From the NCBI GenBank assembly GCA_021904315.1, contig CM038920.1, positions 14,818,001 to 14,882,000 on the forward strand: 64,000 nucleotides of DNA. The letters are read 5' to 3'. Of this stretch, positions 5,308 through 63,850 are shown piece by piece. The translations under genes were made by a program, and so were the position numbers. The notes under the pieces are model-generated. The model did no database searches, was not told where the DNA came from, and saw only the letters and a program-made list of their open reading frames with translations. Source of the stretch: Sphagnum magellanicum (Eukaryota > Streptophyta > Sphagnopsida > Sphagnales > Sphagnaceae). Position 1 is the first letter of the stretch. Each line of letters starts with the position of its first letter.

Positions 5308-6500
5308 GATTACCTTACCAAAATCAAGCATAGTGTTGAATGTGGTTCCAAAAATTGGTTTGGAGGAGTTAAAATTTGATTTCCCTCATACCCCGAAGGA
5401 TATTCCAATAGATGAAGTTCCTGCACACTTAAAGATGTAAGATTTGAAAATTGCAAGGTGAACGCTACAAAAAGATGTCCAGATCCATGATTTGAATCTA
5501 GGCATTATTACCAAACTGTAACCGGTGAAGCTCAACGCTAATCTAAACCTTTCAACAACTGCAAAAGTGGATTCTTTGCTCAAAGAATACAAGGATGTCT
5601 TCACATGGTCCTATAAGGATCTCAAAGGAATACCTCCCCACATTGCTCAACATTGGACTGAACTAGATACAATAATATCTCCTTCCCATCAAAACCGATA
5701 TCGGATGAATCCCAATTATGCAGTTGTGGTCAAATAAGATTTGGACAAGCTCTTGACTATAGGATTCATTGTTCTATTGCAAGAAGCAACTTGATTTTCA
5801 CCCATTGTGGTGGTCCTTAAGAAAAATGGTAAATTGCGCATTTGCATCAATTTTAAGAAACTAAATGCAACCACAAAAAAGGATCCATATCCTTTACAAT
5901 TTATGAAGGAGGTCTTGGATATGATAGCTAGGCACGAAGTATATTCATTTTTGGATGGATTTTCCGGTTACCATCAGATCATGATAGCACCATAAGATTG
6001 ATACAAAATAACCTTCATCATCAAATGGGGCATTTTCATGTGGTTAGTCATGCCTTTTGGGTTGAAGAATGCACCCCCAACCTACCAACGAGTTGTTAGT
6101 ATGTCTTTCAAGGAATATTTTGGTGTGTTCATGAAGTTGATTTTAAATGATTTTAGTGTCTTTAGTGATTTGAAAACACATTTGGTTAAACTCCAATTGT
6201 GTTTCAACAAATGTCAAAAATTTGGTGTTAGTCTCAACCCATAAAATTTATTTTTCTCATGTTTTCCAATGTCATACTCGGCTACATTGTGTTCAAGGAA
6301 AGGAAGCTACCAGATCCTAAGAAGATTGTAACCATAATCAACATGTCAAAACCAAAAACCCCCAAAGACATTCAAGTTTTCAACGACATGGCCCAGTTTT
6401 ATCATTGTTTCATTTGGAACTTTGCTTTCGTCATGGTCCTAATTATGAAATTGTTGCCAAAAATCAAAGTTTTTTAGTGGACTCTTGAATGTCAACATGT
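5308..6500 (+). pseudogene. Ty3/gypsy reverse transcriptase relic
   Basis: The linker and RT can be followed in segments: LLKEYKDVFTWSYKDLKGI, VVVLKKNGKLRICINFKKLN, KDPYPLQFMKEVLDMI, YSFLDGFSGYHQIMIAP, MWLVMPFGLKNAPPTYQRVV and LGYIVFKERKLPDPKK. These are the standard Ty3 RT blocks, in order. The first catalytic Asp (SFLDGFSGY) is kept. The second block, normally x-D-D, reads LNDF, so one Asp is replaced by Asn. In-frame stops occur at about 5735, 5790, 5995 and 6242, with at least one frame change. The copy is therefore inactive. RT would convert element RNA into cDNA inside gag particles. Confidence 0.9.
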
Positions 6501-6966
6501 GTGGGAGGCAATCAAGTAACAATATGTGGATGCACCGATCTTGACTACACCAAGGTCGGATTTAGAAATTCATGTCCACACTGATGTGTCCAATTTAGCA
6601 GTTGATGTTATGTTGGCTCAAAACCCAACTGGAAAATGTGACCAATTGATTACATATGTGTTTCAACTATTAAACAATGTAAAGAAAAACTACACCACAA
6701 CCGAAAGGGAAGTTCTAGCGATGGTGTATGCTCTTCACAAATACCACCACTACTTATTTGGCAATAAGTTTGTTTTTAATGTAGACCATATGGCCTTCCT
6801 TTACTTGGTCAAAAAACCCCAAGTTTTTGGGTTGATAGCTAGATGGCTTTTGATGTTTTTCAAATACAAATTTTCGATGGTATATAAACCCGAAAAATCA
6901 CATTTAGTTGCTAATGTATTATTTCGTTTACTGGCATCCAATGAACCAAATGGAGTGCTAGATTAA
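6501..6966 (+). pseudogene. Ty3/gypsy RNase H relic
   Basis: A single open frame (6526-6963) covers RNase H: DAPILTTPRSDLEI, then HTDVSNLAVDVMLAQ, TTEREVLAMVYALHKYHHYL, NVDHMAFLYLV and the connection RWLLMFFKYKFSMVYKPEKS. The catalytic Asp (HTD), Glu (EREVLA) and Asp (VDH) are all visible, so this is the best preserved domain of the relic. It degrades the RNA strand of the RNA/DNA hybrid during reverse transcription. Confidence 0.88.
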
Positions 6967-22829: not shown

Positions 22830-24490
22830 TCTTTTTTAGAATATTATGTCCATGTCGATAAAATATTAAAATAATATTTTTTTGACACATAGGATATAAT
22901 ATTTGCTGACGTGAAGGAATATTTTGCCACGTGTCCATGGATGAATGTTCTTTACAGATGAAAAAAAGGATGAACTTTATTCTTAATGTTGCCAACAAAT
23001 GTTATTTTTGCAAAAAGTTGAACAAAAGAAATAAGGTTGAAATAATTTATGTTGGTTTTTTTCAAAACAAATTGACAAATGAAATGTTCAAGTCACAATT
23101 TAAAGCCATATTTCATATTTCTTCAACATGAAATATATTCAAGTTCTACAATATCTAAACCATATAGAATGTTAAATTAAATCCCATAGACACACTAAGA
23201 GGTATGTGCCAATCCAAGCACTAATTGTTCACCACCAAGAGCTCATTAGGAACAAAGACAATATGAAACAACCCACAAGACTTCACATTGCTCACACTAG
23301 TTCAAGTTATTTTTTATTTTCATTCACTTTTTCAACCTCTTATGTCTAACACCATTCTTGTTACTTGCATAATCAAATTGCATTTTTTTCCTATACTACT
23401 AATTTGCCCAATCTATACAACAAGCCTCTATTTTACAATGGCAAGAGGAAAATTGCCACCAATTTTCACACCAAACACATTGGAATCAATGATTGAATAT
23501 ATGCTAATCTCAAGCATATTAGATAGAATATGTGAAATGACAACAAAACCTTGGGAATGTCCAAGAGATGACACTCGATGATTCCCCCTCGAGCATTTGC
23601 TAGAAATCAAAACATGGGGAACATAATGGAAAAAAACAATTGACAAAACAAATGAATGGGTGGCCTAGCAATGGGTGAATGCGAAAATAGACAAAAAAAT
23701 TCTTGCAATACTTAACAAATTGTAAACATTTTGAAGGAGAATATGGAAGACTACCATTGGGCAATGTTCACATATGCCATGGATTTTTTTAAAGAGTGTG
23801 CAAGTTTGAAAAAGCCGATTCTAAAACATTTTTTCATAAGTTTACTCAATGATTTGTTGACAATGGATTTAATAACCCTTGAAAACTTGCTATCAACATA
23901 ATTATTAAAACCTCGAAGATGCAACTCCAAGCAAGTGAGCTTGGTTGCCATAGGATTTAAGGAACAAAGTTTTAAACAATCGATGAATCATTGGATGACA
24001 GGGCCAACCTCAAAACCACGAAACATGTATGATAGTTGAAAGAAACGATGAATCAACAACTGAAAAGAAGAATACCATTATTTGCAATAAATTGTGGAAC
24101 AATACAAGTGTTAAAATGAATAGTGGCTGAAGTTGAACATTGAAATTGATTATTGGAAAAATTGAATGAATTAATGTTGAAACAAAATTTCATAAAAAAT
24201 ATGATAAACAACTACTAACAACACTCATGAACACCACTAGATCTTAATATGTTTCCGATGGTAGAAAGAAGAAATTTCAAGACTATAGATGTAAAGATGC
24301 AAATAGTGATTGAATGATGGGGATATTCTAATTGCTTGTAGTATTATAAAATATATGGGATGGTGATGAAAATGTTTATGACAAAGTTTCTGAGCAACTA
24401 GCCACGAAAATTATGTACATGTATGGAGGATGTTCACAAGGAAATTCATTAGGCCAATAACCTAGCCACATGGCTTTCACAAGGTGAAAA
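22830..24490 (+). pseudogene. Unidentified coding-like repeat, copy 1 (family P)
   Basis: Aligned over its whole length, including non-coding flanks, with the minus-strand copy at 53734-56480. From an ATG at 23438 it encodes TPNTLESMIEYMLISSILD, then RICEMTTKPWE, LLEIKTWGT, WKKTIDKTNEWVA and, after a frame change, ENMEDYHWAMFTYAMDFFKE, CASLKKPILKHF and LLTMDLITLENLL. Stops at the third and later blocks make it a pseudogene. About 600 bp of conserved 5' flank precedes the ATG and contains GT/AG-like sites. I do not recognise the protein; because the copies share flanks, it is a mobile element, not a gene family. It follows a CACTA-type end and a TAGG cluster, which may belong to it. Confidence 0.6.
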
Positions 24491-43650: not shown

Positions 43651-44241
43651 TAACCGCTATGTTTAACCACTAAGTTTATCCAAATTTTAACCATTAAATT
43701 TAACTTAGGTTTAGCCATTACATTTGACATTAAGTTTAGTTTAAGTTGAACCATTAAATTTGGCCACTAAATTTAACCATTAGATGTAACCTTGGTTAAA
43801 GCACTAGATTTACCCATTAGGTTTAGGCTACGTATAATCACTATGCTTAGCCATTAGGTTTAGCCTAAGTTTAACTACTATGTTTAGCTAATTTATAGTC
43901 ATTATGTTTAACCATTAAATTTAGGCATTAGGTTTATCAACTAGTTTTAGTCATTATGTTTAGTCAAGGTTCAATTATTATGTTTAACCATTAGATTTAA
44001 CCAATAGGTTTGACCATGAAATTTGGTCATTAGGTTTATTAACTAAATTTAACCATTATGTTTAACCACTAAATTTGATCATTAAATTTAACCAAGGTTT
44101 AGCCATTGGATTTTATCATTAAGTTTAGCCAAGGTTTAACCATTATGTTTAACCATTAGATTAAACCATTAAGTTTAGCCATTAGGTTTAACTTAATTTT
44201 AACCACTAGTTGTCACCTATTTTTAATCACTATGTTTAGTG
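43651..44241. repeat. 13-bp minisatellite, about 40 units
   Basis: Units are variants of AACCATTAGGTTT, for example 'aaccattatgttt', 'aaccactaaattt', 'gatcattaaattt', 'agccattaggttt' and 'aaccattaagttt', with a recurrent 11-bp short form 'aaccaaggttt'. Divergence between neighbours shows an old array. Confidence 0.9.
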
Positions 44242-46732: not shown

Positions 46733-46959
46733 GATCCACTTGGAGATGTGGATCAATAAGAGAGTGGTAAAGAATTTGAAGAGGAGAAGTAAGAGTTGGA
46801 GACACAAGTGGAACTTTCTCTAGTTTTTTCAACACACGACTTTGGAAGGTAGAACCTCCTTGAGAAGGTAAGTTCTCCTTTCCTTCTGTTCAAGCTTGAG
46901 CGAGAAGAAGAACTAGATCATTTTTTTTCTCATATGCAAGTTTCTTATTGAATTTTTTT

Positions 46960-48545
46960 CAATGGCCAAGCTTTTTTTTTCATTTTTTTTTAAACATAAC
47001 ACGGTTAATGTTGTTGAAAACTTGTAAAAAAATATGCCAAGCTTTTCTCAATGCCTAAAAAAGTTTGGCACATTTTTTTCTGTAATATTCATCATCTTCT
47101 TCCTCTTCATCTTCATCTTTTTTTGTGTCTTAATAATATGGTTGCAAAAAAAACGTTCATTGGGTTTCTCTCAATGCTAAGAAAAGCTTGGTCGGCGATT
47201 TTTTCCTCGTCTTCTTCATCTTTTATTTTGTAGAAAAAAATCTCACCAAGGTACTCTCAGTACCAAAAATACCTTGGCAGGATTTTTTCTACAAAACTTT
47301 TTTTCCCCTTCTTCTCTTTCTTTATCCACTTCTTTTTCTTTTTCTATTTTTCTTCCTTTTCTTCCTCTACCTCATTCATACAAGGTTTCTTCTTTGTAAG
47401 AGAACACCCACCAAGCTTCTCTTGGTACCAAGAGATGTTTGGTGGGAATTTCCTTTCATTATTTGCCGTCTCTCCTATGTGTCATGTTAGGAAAAAAACA
47501 TGTTGAGCTTTTCTTAGCACCGAGAGAAGCTTGGCAGACTATTTTTTCCCCAATTTTTCTTCTCCATTTTGTTTTTTGGTCTTTTCTTCTTCTCCTCCCT
47601 CTTCCTCTTCTTCTTCTTCTTCTTCCTCCTCTTCTTCCTTTTCCTCTTCCTCTTGCTTCTTCCTCTTCCTATTGTAACATCAAAGCCCATCGGGCTTTTC
47701 TCAGTGCCGAGAGAAATTAGGCAAGTTTTTTTTCCCCAAAACTTCTTCTTCTTCTTCTTTCTATAGCTTCTTCTTCTTCTTCATTGTCTACTTCCTCTTC
47801 TTCTCCATCATTTTCTTCTTCTTTGTTTTTTATGACTACATAAAAAATCTTGTCAAGGTATTCTTGGCACCAAAAGTACCTCGACGAGATTTTTTCCTAA
47901 AAGATCTTTTTGCTCCTTCTTCTTTTTCCTCTTCCTCCTCCTCTTCTTCTATCACTTCTCTTTTAAGTGTGGTTGCATGAAAAGAGTCGGTAGGGCTTCT
48001 TTCAACACTAACAGAAGCTCGACAAACTCTTTCCTTATCCAAACTTCTTCTCCTTCTTTTTTTTCTATATTTTCTTCTTTTTATTTTTCTTTTTCTTCCA
48101 CGTTTTCATCTTCTTCAACATCTTCTTCTTCTTCCTCTTCTTTCACTTCTTCACAACCTTGTTACAAGATTCAAGCCCATTGGGCTTCTCTCAACACCGA
48201 GAGAAGTTCGACATGTTTTTTCTTCCCTAAACTTGTTCTCCTTCTTCTTCCTCTTCTCCTTATGCTTTTTCTTCTTCTTTTATCATGTTTTTCTTCCTCT
48301 TCCTTTTCTGCTTCTTTTTCTTTTTCAATTCTTAAGGTTATAGAAAAATATCCCACTAAGGTAGTTTTGGCATCAAAAGTTCCTTAGTGGGATTTTTTTC
48401 CACAAGATTCTTCTTTTCCTTCTTCTTCATTGTTATTTTCTTTTGCATTCTCTTGATTTGATATTCAAGTAATCTTTGCAGAAAAAAAAACTTGTTAAGC
48501 TACCCTTAATGCTAAGAATATCTTGGTGGGTTTTTTTATAGTAAA
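46960..48545. repeat. Array of about 11 hairpins separated by polypyrimidine
   Basis: Each unit has an imperfect palindrome of about 30-40 nt followed by a T tract (usually ATTTTTTTCC), then a CTT-rich spacer. Palindromes begin near 47035, 47157, 47241, 47406, 47499, 47686, 47848, 47985, 48176, 48349 and 48490. Examples of facing arms: 'ccaaggtactc'/'taccttgg', 'ccaccaagcttctcttgg'/'ccaagagatgtttggtgg', 'gggcttctctc'/'gagagaagttcg'. Two unit types recur: one built on CCAAGGTA (47241, 47848, 48349, 48490) and one on AAGCTTCTC. Open frames coding for Ser/Phe/Leu-rich or (minus strand) Glu/Arg/Lys-rich peptides are consequences of the CTT spacers. Confidence 0.85.
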
Positions 48546-50796
48546 TAACATTATCTCTAAGTTTCGGTAATAAACCCAATATAAAATATAAATTTCACAT
48601 ATATCTCACATTAAAAAATGTTATTGTTTCATCATAATTGTTTTGTTTTATGTTCTAGCAGTTTTCAAGCTTGCTAATTCAAATGGAGGAGGATCAATTC
48701 TCATTCAACATGACAATTCGAGCAATGCAAAACCAAACAAATATTAACATAGGGGAAATTCTTAAGAAGTATAAGATCACCCCAAAGCACAAGGCCTAGA
48801 TGTATGTTCCATTGTGTAGGATGGTTCCCATGGCCATTATCAAGCCTACTTTCAATATTGATATTTTGAAGATGGAGCAAGCCTTTCACATGGGGTATAG
48901 GGAAGAAAAAATGTTAGGTTTTTTACTTTTCCAACTCCTTTTCAAAAAAGGGAAGGAGAAAAGGTTTTTTACTTCTACAACAAATGTTTTTTGTATGGAA
49001 TGGGAACCACCACATCTAGGCTTGGATGCCTTACATTATTAGATTGCATAATGATGATCCATCATGGCACATATTTGGTGATTTGATTTTACTTGACACA
49101 TCTCATGGGCTTGTGGAGTTGCTCATAGCCATGATTGATTTGAACAAGTAAGTCTTCCTCCTTTTATGATTTTTTTGTGAATATGCTACATTTCTACTTT
49201 GTCTCCAACGTTTCATTTTTCAAGTTTATGATTAGGGGCATTGAATTTGATCATGTCAAGCCAAGCCTTGTGCACGAATTCTTTCACATTCAAGGAATTG
49301 GAATCATTCCCTTGAAGTAATTCAAGGACATTTTGCCAACAAAAGTAGACAAAAAATGTGAAAGCAAATCAAGGAAGACTTGTCATTCCCTCACATTGGA
49401 GGCCTTTTCTTATTATATGTATAAGGTGATTTTTATTTTTTCCACATATTTTCATTTCGATCACAATTTATTTCTTCGCATATTCCATTTGACACCTCTT
49501 GAATTCTTGTGGTGCCAACAAAGGGAGCTTGCATATGCGGTAAATATGGATGTCAAGCTCTAGTGTAAAGAGGTCTCCTAGGAAGGTGACAATCTCTTAC
49601 AAAGCTGCAAGAATTGATGGAGAAGTTAATGGAATAGGTAAGAAAGGAGCACTACTCAACTTTCTACAAACATCTCCCTATTTGTGATCATGCTCTTGGG
49701 TCCAAATTTTTATAGGAAATTCAAGCCCACTATGACAACAACTCAAAGCCTGAGATGTTCAATGAAAAATTTCAGATGCTCATGTATTCTTCCATTAGCA
49801 AGGAACATAAAGTTACATGGTCAACAATGGAACAAGTTTGAAGTTTTGAAGGAAGCTAAGAAGTTCCCAAAGAAGGGTTTCTCAAATGTTCAATTTGATG
49901 AATGGGTTGCACAAGGCAACATTTTTGGCATTAGGTAATACTTCAAATATTTTTGTTTGACTTTCCATTTTCCATTTTCTATCCACATCTAATCTAATTT
50001 CGCTAACTTTGGATTTTGTAGCTTGAAGTTGAAGCACTTAAGCTCTACGATGCCACAATTTTTGACCTCAAGCTCATTGTAAGAGAGGTCCATGATTTAA
50101 TGACCTTGGAGGAATACATTTGCCACTAGAAACTTGAGGTGTGGGAGACATGTTTTTTCTGCAAATTCAAGCCCAAAGATGGGATTTGTCATAGCAAATC
50201 TTGGGAGTAATAATCCAAGGGAAAGGAGGCCTTCAAAAAGGGACCATTTCAAAACCTCATATTTGTATTTCTTTTATTTCTCTTGCTTCTTTTGCTTTTC
50301 AATATTCGTCATTCAATCTTGAAGATGAGGAGATGTTTTATTTGCATCTCTTGCCCATTTTTTCTTCCCCAAGGGTGTGATCGATGAGCTCCCCCATCTG
50401 TTATGGATTTGGCAAGATCCAAAGGCAGACAACACCATGTATTGCAAGGATCTTCTCAAGGATTGGTCCTTAGACCATTTTGAAGATTTCAACTGGTACA
50501 TTGAATGCCCCTGGGATTGTACCTTGCTATCTAAAATTACCTTCGAAGTGAGCCATGACCCTGACTTCCAAGAAAAACTTGCTAGCTTTGGGGGTTCAAA
50601 CATTCAGGTAAACAAGAAAGAGTATGTTGTAAAAGGGAATGGAAAAAGATAACTCCCCAAAAAATTGTCAAGGTTCTAAATGATGTGACCATGGTTGATT
50701 ATGAAGTCACAACCTTAAAGCAAGATTTTGTTGAGCTCCATGATGGATTTGAAAGGAGACATTTTAGTAGATGCCTTTACTTTTTGCCAAAAAGTT

Positions 50797-53733: not shown

Positions 53734-56480
53734 TCAAATAGATTGAGCAGAGCCATATTCTCTGGGTGTGTTGTTCACATCGTTGGAACCCATTTGTGAC
53801 CTTAGTGTTGTCACTTTTGTGGCTTCTTGGTCCTTCGAATCTGTCATGGTATCTTTTGGGTATGTTGTCTTTGGCACCTCACTTTCATCTTCATCATCCG
53901 ACCCCGAAATGTCTTTTGTGTCCACCTCGTTGTTAATTGTGTTGGCCATTACTAGCTAGTCCATTGCCTTGTTGTAAGCAAATGTAGGTGTTTGGTATGG
54001 ATCATGCTTTGCATATGTATCATTTTTTGGCCATTTTTTTCCTAAAATTCAGCCGTTTTTCTTGCATGCTTGGAATCCTAGCAGGTAATCACACTTGCGA
54101 TGAAATTGTGTTCTAAATTTTTTGCTTCCCAGGTTTGTTGGCCATAGATTGTTTCAAGGTGGTTGTGACAAGTTGCTCAAAAACTCCAGGATGAATATTT
54201 TGATCATTGTTCCATATATCTTGTAATCCTACAAGTGATTAGTGGACACCCAATATCTAACCTCTACTTGGAATTCTACATTTACATTCTTGAGCTTTCT
54301 TTTCTTTATAAATAGATACAAATCCAAATTTGGTGGTGATTTATAAGAATGCCGTAGATATGGATATTGTGACTTGATGCAATTGAAAAAGCTTTGTTCT
54401 AAATTTCTTCAATGGAACCCTTCTACCTCAAAATAAAATAAAATTGAATGCACAACATAGTACACATTTGGGAAGATGTTTGCTTGGTGACATATTTATA
54501 GTTGTCCATTCTACATTTAAATCTTGCATCACAACCATTGGTTTTGATTAGACCATCTAGTGGGTACTAAAGAAAGTTTGGAGGAATTGCATATGCCAAA
54601 ACAACTCCAACTGGCAAAACAATTACATGTGTCATAACAACCACAACATCATGTATTTGTTTATCATTTACTACTTTAATATGATATTTTCATTGACTAT
54701 TTGTTTCAACAGTCACTACATATTTATTCAACAAAGAGCCACATTACTCAAATTCAACCATTATTTTATTTTGTTTCCTCATAATGAAATATTTCCTTTG
54801 GAGATCACATATTTTGAACAAATATTAATGTTCACAAGTCTATTGAACTACAATTCAATCTAAAGAATGGGATTTTGATCTCTCATTCAATTTTTGATTC
54901 ATTGTTTTTTTTTTATTATCATACATGTCTCGTGGTTTTGAGGTTGGCCTTATCATCCAACAATTAACCGGTTGTTTTCACAATTTGTTCCTCAATTCTT
55001 GTGGCACCTAGGCTTGCTTGCCTAAAGTTGCATAAAGTTGTTGTGGTTTCATGAATTCTATGGATAACAAGTTTTCAACTATTACCAAGTCCTTTGTCGA
55101 CAAATCGTTGAATAAGCTAATGGCAAAATGCTTTGGAACTGGCTTTTTTTAAACTCGCACATTTTCTGAAGAAGTCCATTGCATGTGTAAACATAGCCAA
55201 ATTGTAGTCCTCCATATCCTCCTATGAAATGTTTACAATTTGTTTGAGTATAGAAATACTTTCTATGTCTATTTTCGCATTTGCTGCCATGCTACATGTT
55301 CATTTGTTTTGTCAATTACCTTTTTCCAGTATGTTCCCCATGTTTTGATTTTGAGCAAATGTTGTAAGGGGTTTAGTCTAATAACATTTCTTGGATATTC
55401 CAATAATTTTTTTGTCATCTCACATATTTTATCTAGTATGTTTGATATTAACATGTATTCAATCATAGTTTCCAAGGTGTTTGGTGTGACAATTGGTGAC
55501 AAATGTTTTATTGCCATTGTAATAGAGAGGCTTTATAATTGCAAGCATGCGGTTGAAGAAAAAGGGTGCAAGTAGGAAGTATGCATGCAAAGAATGCAAA
55601 TTGAAATATTCAACACACAAATTACTAGTGGAGGGGGAAATAATGCAATTTCATTGTGCAAGTAACCTAGGGGTTGAGAGGGTGAATGAAAATTATAAAA
55701 GAGCTTGAAAAGGTGCAAATTCTTTAAGGTGTACCAAAATCTTGTCATAGTGTCACCCTTTTTTGTCTTTTTTACTTAGGATTTTTTACCATGTAAAAAC
55801 ACATTTATGGATGACTATGATGGAATCTAGAATTGTAATAGTCTAAGATATATTCCTTCTAAAAAAATTGACAACTTTTGATTCATTATTTTCTATGGGG
55901 ATCAAAATATAGGGTAAAAAAGGATTACAATAAGGACTAAGCCCTTTTCGTCATGTGTGATACACCTTAAAGGATTTTCACCCAAAATGGTAATGTGTCA
56001 TGGGCTACTTCATATTGTCTCAATTTTGAATGGGCACATACCTCTTTATTGTGAATAGATAGTGTTCAAATTGGCACATATTTCTTGGTGGGACAACATG
56101 TTTATGTGCCACTAAATTTGATTTAATTTCAAATTCTGTATGGTTTGGATGCTGCAAAGTTGGAATATACTTGGTATTAAAGAAATAAGAAATATTGGTT
56201 GAAATATGACTTCAACATTTCATGTGACAATTTTTTCTAAATAAACCAACATAATTTTTTTCCATCATGTTTCTTTTATTCAATTTTTGCAAAGAAAAAC
56301 TTGTTGCTAATGTTCACGAAAAGGTTCATCCATTGTCATTTGTCATCCACATTTTCATCCATTAATCCATGAACACATGGTAGAATATTCCTCCACGCCA
56401 CTAAATATTTTGTTTTAAGTCTCAAAAAAATATTTTTCAAATATTTCATTGACGTGGGAAGAATATTCTAAAAAAAATTA
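53734..56480 (-). pseudogene. Unidentified coding-like repeat, copy 2 (family P)
   Basis: Inverted relative of 22830-24490. From an ATG at 55517 (minus strand) it encodes TPNTLETMIEYMLISNILDK, ICEMTKKLLEYPRN, HLLKIKTWGTYWKKVIDKTN and, after stops, PVPKHFAISLFNDLSTKDLV. This copy keeps an uninterrupted frame further than copy 1 (to 55269). Matching non-coding sequence extends from about 56480 through the MITE M2 insertion to at least 54190. A further frame at 53949-53734 begins MANTINNEVDTKDISGSDDE and is acidic, Ser/Asp/Thr-rich; whether it belongs to the same unit is unknown. No family recognised. Confidence 0.55.
55712..55983. mobile_element. MITE M2 (CTTTAAGG family), nested in family P copy 2
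   Basis: Terminal inverted repeats 'ggtgcaaattctttaaggtg' (from 55712) and, at the other end, the complement of 'gggtgaaaatcctttaaggt' (to 55983). Short A-runs flank both sides. Copy 1 of family P (near 23311) is continuous where this element sits, so it is an empty-site comparison within the window and confirms insertion. The interior matches MITE M1 in reverse. Confidence 0.8.
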
Positions 56481-62269: not shown

Positions 62270-63850
62270 AAACATGAAGAGGAAAAATAATACATTTGTG
62301 ATATTTTGTCTCAATTTTTTGAAAAAAAATTGAACCTTCTGTATTTTCAAACCCCATATCTTTCTCATTTTTAGTCCATTTTAAGTGATTAAAAAACCTA
62401 TGACTAGGGATATACAAGACCTTTTTATCTTCCAAATGCAACAAAACAACAACAACAAAATTGTGATATTTTGTTTCAAATGTTTTGAAAAAAAAAAAAG
62501 TAACCTATGGCGCATTACAATTGCACTATAGTTGATCTTAGACATTTATTTAACTTCAAATGGTTAGCCTTAGTTTAGTGAAGCCTAAACACCATGTAAT
62601 AAAAAATTTAGTTGTAATTTAATTGATATTGTGTCTCAAATGTTTTGAAGAAAAAATTAAAAACCTTCTCTAGTTGCAAACCCCATATCTTTATCATTTT
62701 TAATCTCTTTCGAATTATCTAAAAACCTATGGGTGTATCAACTAAATATTTGCAAAACCTCTTTCAAATCCAAATGCGACAAAGTAATGACAAAAGAACT
62801 TAATCTCAAAATCCAAAATTACAACTTAATTTCAATTAGGGTAAATAGGCCTACTACCATACATTTAAGATTTCAAAGGAATTTGACTTCTTACACATTT
62901 TTTTTCTTTTTTTCTTAAAATAAATTTTGTAACCTTCGATTTAACACTTCCAATGTTACAAAAAATGCTCAATTTGGTTAAAGAACGAAGAAAATATGGG
63001 TTGTTTTGTGTAAAAGGGTTCATGTTTGATGATATATTTGTTAAAATAGTTTCAAATTTTGAAATTAAATTGTATTGTTATTGTTTAGTTGCATTTATAG
63101 CTCAAAGAAGTCTTGTAAATTGCTAATCGACACACCTATGGTTTTTTAAATCACTAAAAACAAACTTAAAAAGAAAAAAATACAGGGTTTCAAACTAAAG
63201 ATATTTAAAGTTTTTTTTTCAAAACATTTCAAATAAAATATCACAATTTTGGATTTTGAGATTAAGTTATTTTCTCATTGCTTTGATGCATTTGAAATTC
63301 CGAAAGTTTTTGTAGATCCTTAGTTGATGCACCCATAGCTTTTTAAATTACTCAAAATAAACTTACAATGAAAAAGATATGGGGTTTCAAACTAGAGAGG
63401 TTTAAAGTTTTTTTTCAAAACATTTGAAACAAAATATCACACTTTTGAAAATTGAGATTATATTCTTTCATTACTTTGTCGCATTTAAAGATCAAAAAAA
63501 TATTTTAGATTGTTAATTGTTGCACCCATAGCTTTTTAGATCGTTCAAAATAGACCTAAAATGAAAAAGATATGGGGTTTCAAACTAGAAAGGTTTTTAA
63601 GTTTTATGTTCAAAACGTTTGAAACAAAATATCATAGTTTCAAATGTTGATATTGAACTATTTTCCCACTAATTTGTTACATTTGGAGTTCAAAGAAATC
63701 CTTTAAATCATTAGTTGGTGCACCCATAGCTTTTTAGATCACTCAAAACAAACTTAAAATGAAAAAGATATGGGGTTTCAAACTAGAGAAGGTTAAAAAA
63801 AAATTCTTCAAAACATTTGAAACAAAATTTCAACTGGAATGCAACTATAA
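62270..63850. repeat. Tandem array of about 197 bp with inverted left arm
   Basis: On the right, four direct units are marked by 'gcacccatagctttttagat'-type sequence at about 63130, 63329, 63522 and 63720, each followed by 'aatgaaaaagatatggggtt' and 'tcaaaacatttgaaac'. On the left, the same unit is present in reverse orientation ('aaccccatatctttctcatt' at about 62350, 'aaccccatatctttatcatt' at about 62680). The two orientations face each other across about 62830-63020, so the block can fold back on itself. The array runs close to the window end; its limit is not visible. Similar units occur at 17440-17720. Confidence 0.8.

Follow-up and report, generated by a model that had tools for sequence, protein, structure and literature searches.

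The window, i.e. the whole stretch of 64,000 nucleotides analysed, contains at 47025-48538 eleven homologous palindromes of about 56 bp (M2-M12), whose starts lie 86-190 bp apart and which are separated by pyrimidine-rich spacers. The reading that we favour, with a probability of roughly 0.6, is that they form an old, presumably local tandem array of palindromes, which has decayed neutrally and in which arm-templated copying has sometimes reset both arms of a palindrome.

The alignment of the eleven modules is nearly gap-free. A profile built from it matched 11 sites on the + strand of the 64-kb window (47025-48537), and all eleven matched on the - strand too, as expected of palindromes. The profile is circular for its eleven source modules and informative only for the remaining window, in which a twelfth module above noise was not found (next match E=0.28). 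The module ends listed here are those of the palindrome scan and lie at most 2 bases from the profile matches; the strand is given as a dot for the palindromes.

47025..47080, strand. : M2, palindrome (profile E=3.1e-11; fold z -4.35)
47148..47203, strand. : M3, worn palindrome (profile E=3.5e-12; fold z -0.87)
47234..47289, strand. : M4, palindrome of type A, AAGGTA...TACCTT (profile E=3e-14; fold z -6.10)
47401..47456, strand. : M5, palindrome outside the three-module unit (profile E=9.7e-13; fold z -6.36)
47491..47546, strand. : M6, palindrome (profile E=9.9e-15; fold z -5.36)
47679..47734, strand. : M7, worn palindrome of the same type as M10, 78% identity (profile E=9.5e-14; fold z -1.59)
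47842..47897, strand. : M8, palindrome of type A (profile E=5.9e-13; fold z -7.18)
47979..48034, strand. : M9, palindrome (profile E=8.4e-11; fold z -2.22)
48169..48224, strand. : M10, palindrome (profile E=2.6e-13; fold z -3.47)
48344..48399, strand. : M11, type A, the palindrome with the most pairs in the window-wide scan, 23/26 pairs (profile E=4.7e-10; fold z -7.80)
48483..48538, strand. : M12, worn palindrome that closes the array (profile E=9.4e-12; fold z -0.85)
47081..48482, + strand: ten inter-module spacers of 30-134 bp, 68-92% pyrimidine, rich in TTC/CTT (composition, Tandem Repeats Finder)
47507-47924 and 47995-48427 (span 47507..48427), + strand: three-module unit in two collinear copies, 69% identical including the spacers (self comparison)

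Taken together, the ten spacers are 81% pyrimidine, compared to 52% for the modules. All ten are pyrimidine-rich on the + strand, and because the modules themselves are palindromic, their common orientation is read from the spacers; the eleven aligned modules constitute a head-to-tail tandem array in a single orientation. Both the number of modules and the polypyrimidine spacing reported in the preliminary description were thus recovered. Its interval began at 46960, and there the first 65 bases contain no more than half a worn module. A candidate M1 (46950-47010) folded no better than its shuffles, gave no profile match and was removed before all pair counts; the palindrome scan has a palindrome centred at 47002 with 18/26 pairs. 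The observed/expected ratio of CpG was 0.60 in the modules and 0.30 in the window, despite the transition-rich decay.

Columns i and 75-i of the module alignment pair with each other around a centre at columns 37-38. The T tract (columns 59-64), earlier described as following the hairpin, is not a separate element but the outer part of the 3' arm, opposite an A tract in the 5' arm (columns 11-16), with A-T in 7 to 10 of the 11 modules at each pair. Transcription terminators were rejected, the T tract being the partner of the 5' A tract. The palindrome scan used 26-base arms and 60 dinucleotide shuffles as control. Six palindromes in the array and four in the remaining window (10 in total) had at least 19/26 pairs, compared to 0 in 60 shuffles; eight had at least 17 pairs (shuffled mean 0.15) and 12 at least 15 pairs (shuffled mean 1.28), nine of the latter being modules and three non-modules, with M7 and M10 below 15 pairs. 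Folding against shuffles, proposed earlier as a check, favoured eight of the 11 modules (z -2.2 to -7.8) and gave no clear advantage for M3 (-0.87), M7 (-1.59) and M12 (-0.85). In 66-nt windows the mean folding energy was not lower in the array (-8.3) than elsewhere (-8.5), and the share below -12 was 0.27 in the array and 0.19 elsewhere.

The surroundings look like gene-poor eukaryotic DNA, with repeated pieces that are 67-81% alike and, at 6002-6963, disrupted frames for reverse transcriptase and RNase H. A relic reading frame in the orientation of the array (+ strand) begins at 48683, about 145 bp past the last module, and is interrupted by stops and frame shifts; it covers 48683-49148, with pieces to about 50900, in several frames (MEEDQFSFNMTIRAMQ..., FFVWNGNHH, AWMPYIIRLHNDDPSWH...). 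A GNHRLQAW-like motif occurs in hypothetical proteins of land plants, which serves as a lead only. A different tandem array, with periods of 13, 24-26, 36-37 and 50 bases, lies at 43651-44240. Inverted copies of a repeated element are present at 23422-24122 and 54823-55533 (76% identity over 715 columns) and are accompanied by additional pieces that match at 22817-23183/56120-56490 and 24269-24405/54165-54301, and a 198-base unit is repeated in 3.5 tandem copies at 63056-63832, with inverted relatives between 62297 and 62820. TTTAGGG occurs at 8 sites on both strands of the 64 kb, which is about chance level and gives no indication of a plant; the decayed elements, by their look, may suggest a plant host.

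It is against this background that the array could be regarded as the tandem-repeat region of a decayed transposable element, such as the subterminal part of an element, where transposase-binding sites are paired, or the hypervariable non-coding part of an LTR retrotransposon. The same-orientation relic frame that follows the array and the old broken elements in the window would fit such an origin, and satellites are known to arise from short tandem arrays within plant LTR retrotransposons (PMC7004042). However, self comparison at E<=1e-8 did not reveal a direct or inverted repeat flanking the array in the window, a search that could miss LTRs that are very old or lie beyond the window, and the profile gave no second copy in the window. 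Seven of eight relic pieces had no Pfam match at E<=1, and the eighth matched a leucine zipper only weakly (E=0.067), short of the cut-off. Furthermore, arms serving as binding sites should have one common motif rather than change jointly type by type. We consider the transposable-element origin rather unlikely.

When viral contigs and the genomes of bacteria and archaea, collections not expected to hold the host, were scanned for exact patterns, 0 copies of the array were found, and of two pattern matches to the relic piece 48800-49042 in viral contigs none was confirmed. Among titles and the beginnings of abstracts on palindromic tandem arrays or satellites and on CACTA subterminal repeats, the layout was not found; it could still be in print. 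An Epstein-Barr virus study matching an arm string was taken, from its title and the start of its abstract, for a chance string match.

The two collinear copies at 47507-47924 and 47995-48427 set M6, M7 and M8 against M9, M10 and M11, and they demonstrate repetition of a multi-monomer unit. The three-module unit is about 490-500 bp long and has two clear copies plus a third that is partial: in the first unit (M2-M4), M2 matches M6 (72% over 54) and M4 matches M8, flanks included (73% over 135), while a collinear match of M3 to M7 was not found. An alternation of two module types, as suggested previously, was not seen; a higher-order unit does exist, but one of loose threes, with M5 outside it. 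Identity between modules ranges from 43 to 78%. M4/M8/M11 (0.72-0.78) and M7/M10 (0.78) are clear groups, whereas the grouping of X (50-72% identity) and of M3 within C (59-61% to M7 and M10) is weakly supported. The types used here were X (M2, M6, M9, M12), C (M3, M7, M10) and A (M4, M8, M11), with M5 alone; as they were set by eye from arm sequence and position, the type-level statistics are partly circular. With a length of about 1.5 kb and this range of identity, the array differs from satellite DNA in the sense of long arrays of near-identical monomers.

Over all modules the two arms covary. Cells changed on both sides numbered 36, compared to 18.8 +/- 3.6 in shuffles (0 of 500), the covariation score was 0.399 compared to 0.264 (0 of 500) and paired cells made up 80.7% compared to 72.9% (0 of 500); further pair types, one of the five measures, were not above shuffles (32 compared to 29.4, 74 of 500). 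These shuffles ignore relatedness among the modules. When the 3' arm was slid by 1-3 columns, pairing fell to 41-54%. The RNAalifold consensus had a double change in 10 of 15 predicted pairs.

The coupling of the arms is seen between types more than within them. Watson-Crick match between 5' and 3' arms was 0.678 in the same module, 0.633 in the same type and 0.562 in another type. Permutation of the 3' arms gave P=0.0002 across all modules and was not significant within types (P=0.148 over 864 exact arrangements); for the inner columns alone the values were P 0.0016-0.0041 and 0.25-0.28, and with transition-type states alone P=0.0158 and 0.293, respectively. The covariation that had been claimed earlier was hence found over all modules, and the outcome named as speaking against it, compensation no greater than chance, was what the permutations gave within types and not what was seen between types. 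We conclude that the covariation is mostly the difference between module types, multiplied by tandem duplication. The array is in this respect a warning case, as covariation over all copies resembled selection on RNA and was not significant by permutation once types were allowed for.

A simulation of independent arms descending from one founder palindrome (300 runs x 8 settings) gave P=0.007-0.043 for the excess of same module over same type and P=0.000-0.023 for that of same type over other types; the excess of same module over other types was reached in 0 of 300 runs in every setting. As the simulation assumes equal site rates and a simple tree that is fixed, and reaches a mean pairing of 0.48-0.55, less than observed, we trust the permutations above it; together the two may leave room for weak within-type coupling. 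Across the three pairs of collinear modules, arms matched their own partners at 104/156 positions and the crossed partners at 97/156, an excess coming wholly from M8/M11 (44 compared to 36), with 34 compared to 35 for M6/M9 and 26 compared to 26 for M7/M10. M8 and M11 differ by four neighbouring double changes that preserve pairing (columns 19, 21, 22 and 23; overlap P=0.101, chosen post hoc).

The clearest joint change of both arms is that of type A. Compared with the majority of the other eight modules, M4, M8 and M11 have transversions at the 5' columns 17, 27 and 29 and also at the exact partner columns in the 3' arm, every pair being complementary. If placed at random, the changes would fall on these three columns with a chance of 3.9e-4, a value for position alone with the columns found post hoc. 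The pattern is not clean: the change at column 29 occurs also in M12, and the majority base at column 17 is present in only 4/8 of the other modules. Without the three pairs the contrast between types was smaller (match 0.664, 0.625 and 0.595 for same module, same type and other type), and the excess of same module over other type gave P=0.003-0.020 in the simulation, in which all 26 pairs were simulated. Because the excess persists after their removal, the three transversion pairs are not the whole contrast between the types. Most simply, one arm would have been copied from its partner, which explains the paired transversions better than six independent changes would; the alternative is an independent palindromic origin. 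According to two reports (PMC8794818, PMC8604942), template switching creates and restores the arms of inverted repeats, and these three paired transversions are candidate products of it. The earlier suggestion that a folded form is copied may hold in the narrower sense of arm-to-arm copying of DNA that founded at least one type.

Hairpin-templated repair could also have been recurrent and kept the two arms of each palindrome coupled throughout, including the time after duplication, a concerted evolution within the single palindrome. The within-type simulation (P=0.007-0.043), the clustered double changes of M8/M11 and the type A transversions are in favour of this, but the within-type permutations were not significant and the arms of group C matched their own partners slightly worse (0.513) than the arms of other C modules (0.532), and we hold continuous coupling to be highly improbable. 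A two-way concert, in which copies are homogenised by unequal exchange and arms by recurrent hairpin-templated copying, giving compensatory change of DNA without RNA function, is in our opinion clearly unlikely.

The mismatches point to an array that decays as DNA, with neither strand preferred. The 25 pairs in 11 modules give 275 cells, of which 189 are Watson-Crick, 33 G-U, 32 A-C and 21 other; 65 of the 86 non-Watson-Crick cells are thus of the transition types G-U or A-C. In a conserved structured RNA, single changes should leave more G-U pairs than A-C mismatches on the transcribed strand, and no such excess was present. As G-U equals A-C, there is no sign of selection on RNA, and this equality is the main evidence for strand-neutral decay of DNA, within a test of 65 cells from related modules that a small bias could escape. 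Selection on a folded RNA, one of the options put forward in the preliminary description, is accordingly disfavoured. Rfam gave 0 matches at the gathering score in the 64-kb window and, when relaxed, 22 matches in 46900-48700 (E 0.089-4.9), all far under the family cut-offs; no tRNA was found in the window. That the hairpins act as RNA, as small-RNA precursors or structured parts of a transcript with stems kept by selection, would agree with the covariation across all modules, the RNAalifold double changes and several strong hairpins, but is the least credible of the explanations given the equal G-U and A-C counts, the three modules without a clear fold advantage, the Rfam result and the non-significant within-type compensation. 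A coding function was judged unlikely as well: the frames that run across the array (up to 183 aa, + strand, 47836-48387) translate the TTC-rich spacers into low-complexity sequence, with no conserved product seen by eye, and other frames are broken by many stops.

In the history of neutral decay that we prefer, the monomer would have consisted of a DNA palindrome of about 56 bp, in which an A tract and a T tract enclose two arms around a small centre, and of a pyrimidine-rich spacer after it, and the arms would still be complementary within a module because they started as inverted copies. The types probably diverged before the tandem duplication of a unit of about three modules, which would account for part of the arm differences among modules, and all copies would later have decayed, mainly by transitions. 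At least in type A both arms would have changed jointly; template switching, with one hairpin arm serving as template for the other, is the simplest route, and a palindrome of independent origin is possible for this type. The array presumably has no cellular function.

The array can be compared with three known systems. Subterminal repeats of CACTA-type elements are short motifs in both orientations, arrayed near the element end; the present array is similar in having short motifs in both orientations, but element ends and transposase were not found at it. With local tandem repeats and satellites that have higher-order units, as described in PMC7004042, the array has in common tandem monomers, a higher-order period and duplication followed by decay. 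It differs in being only about 1.5 kb long, with 11 modules of 43-78% identity and a palindromic monomer, and a link to a retrotransposon was not seen in the window. Template-switch (quasi-palindrome) mutation, as described in PMC8794818 and PMC8604942, concerns RNA genes and coding DNA of yeast, whereas here it is proposed from one type in an undated array; the two would have in common coordinated changes of several bases in both arms without selection. If the within-type coupling is true, arrays such as this one would be natural places to study template switching away from genes.
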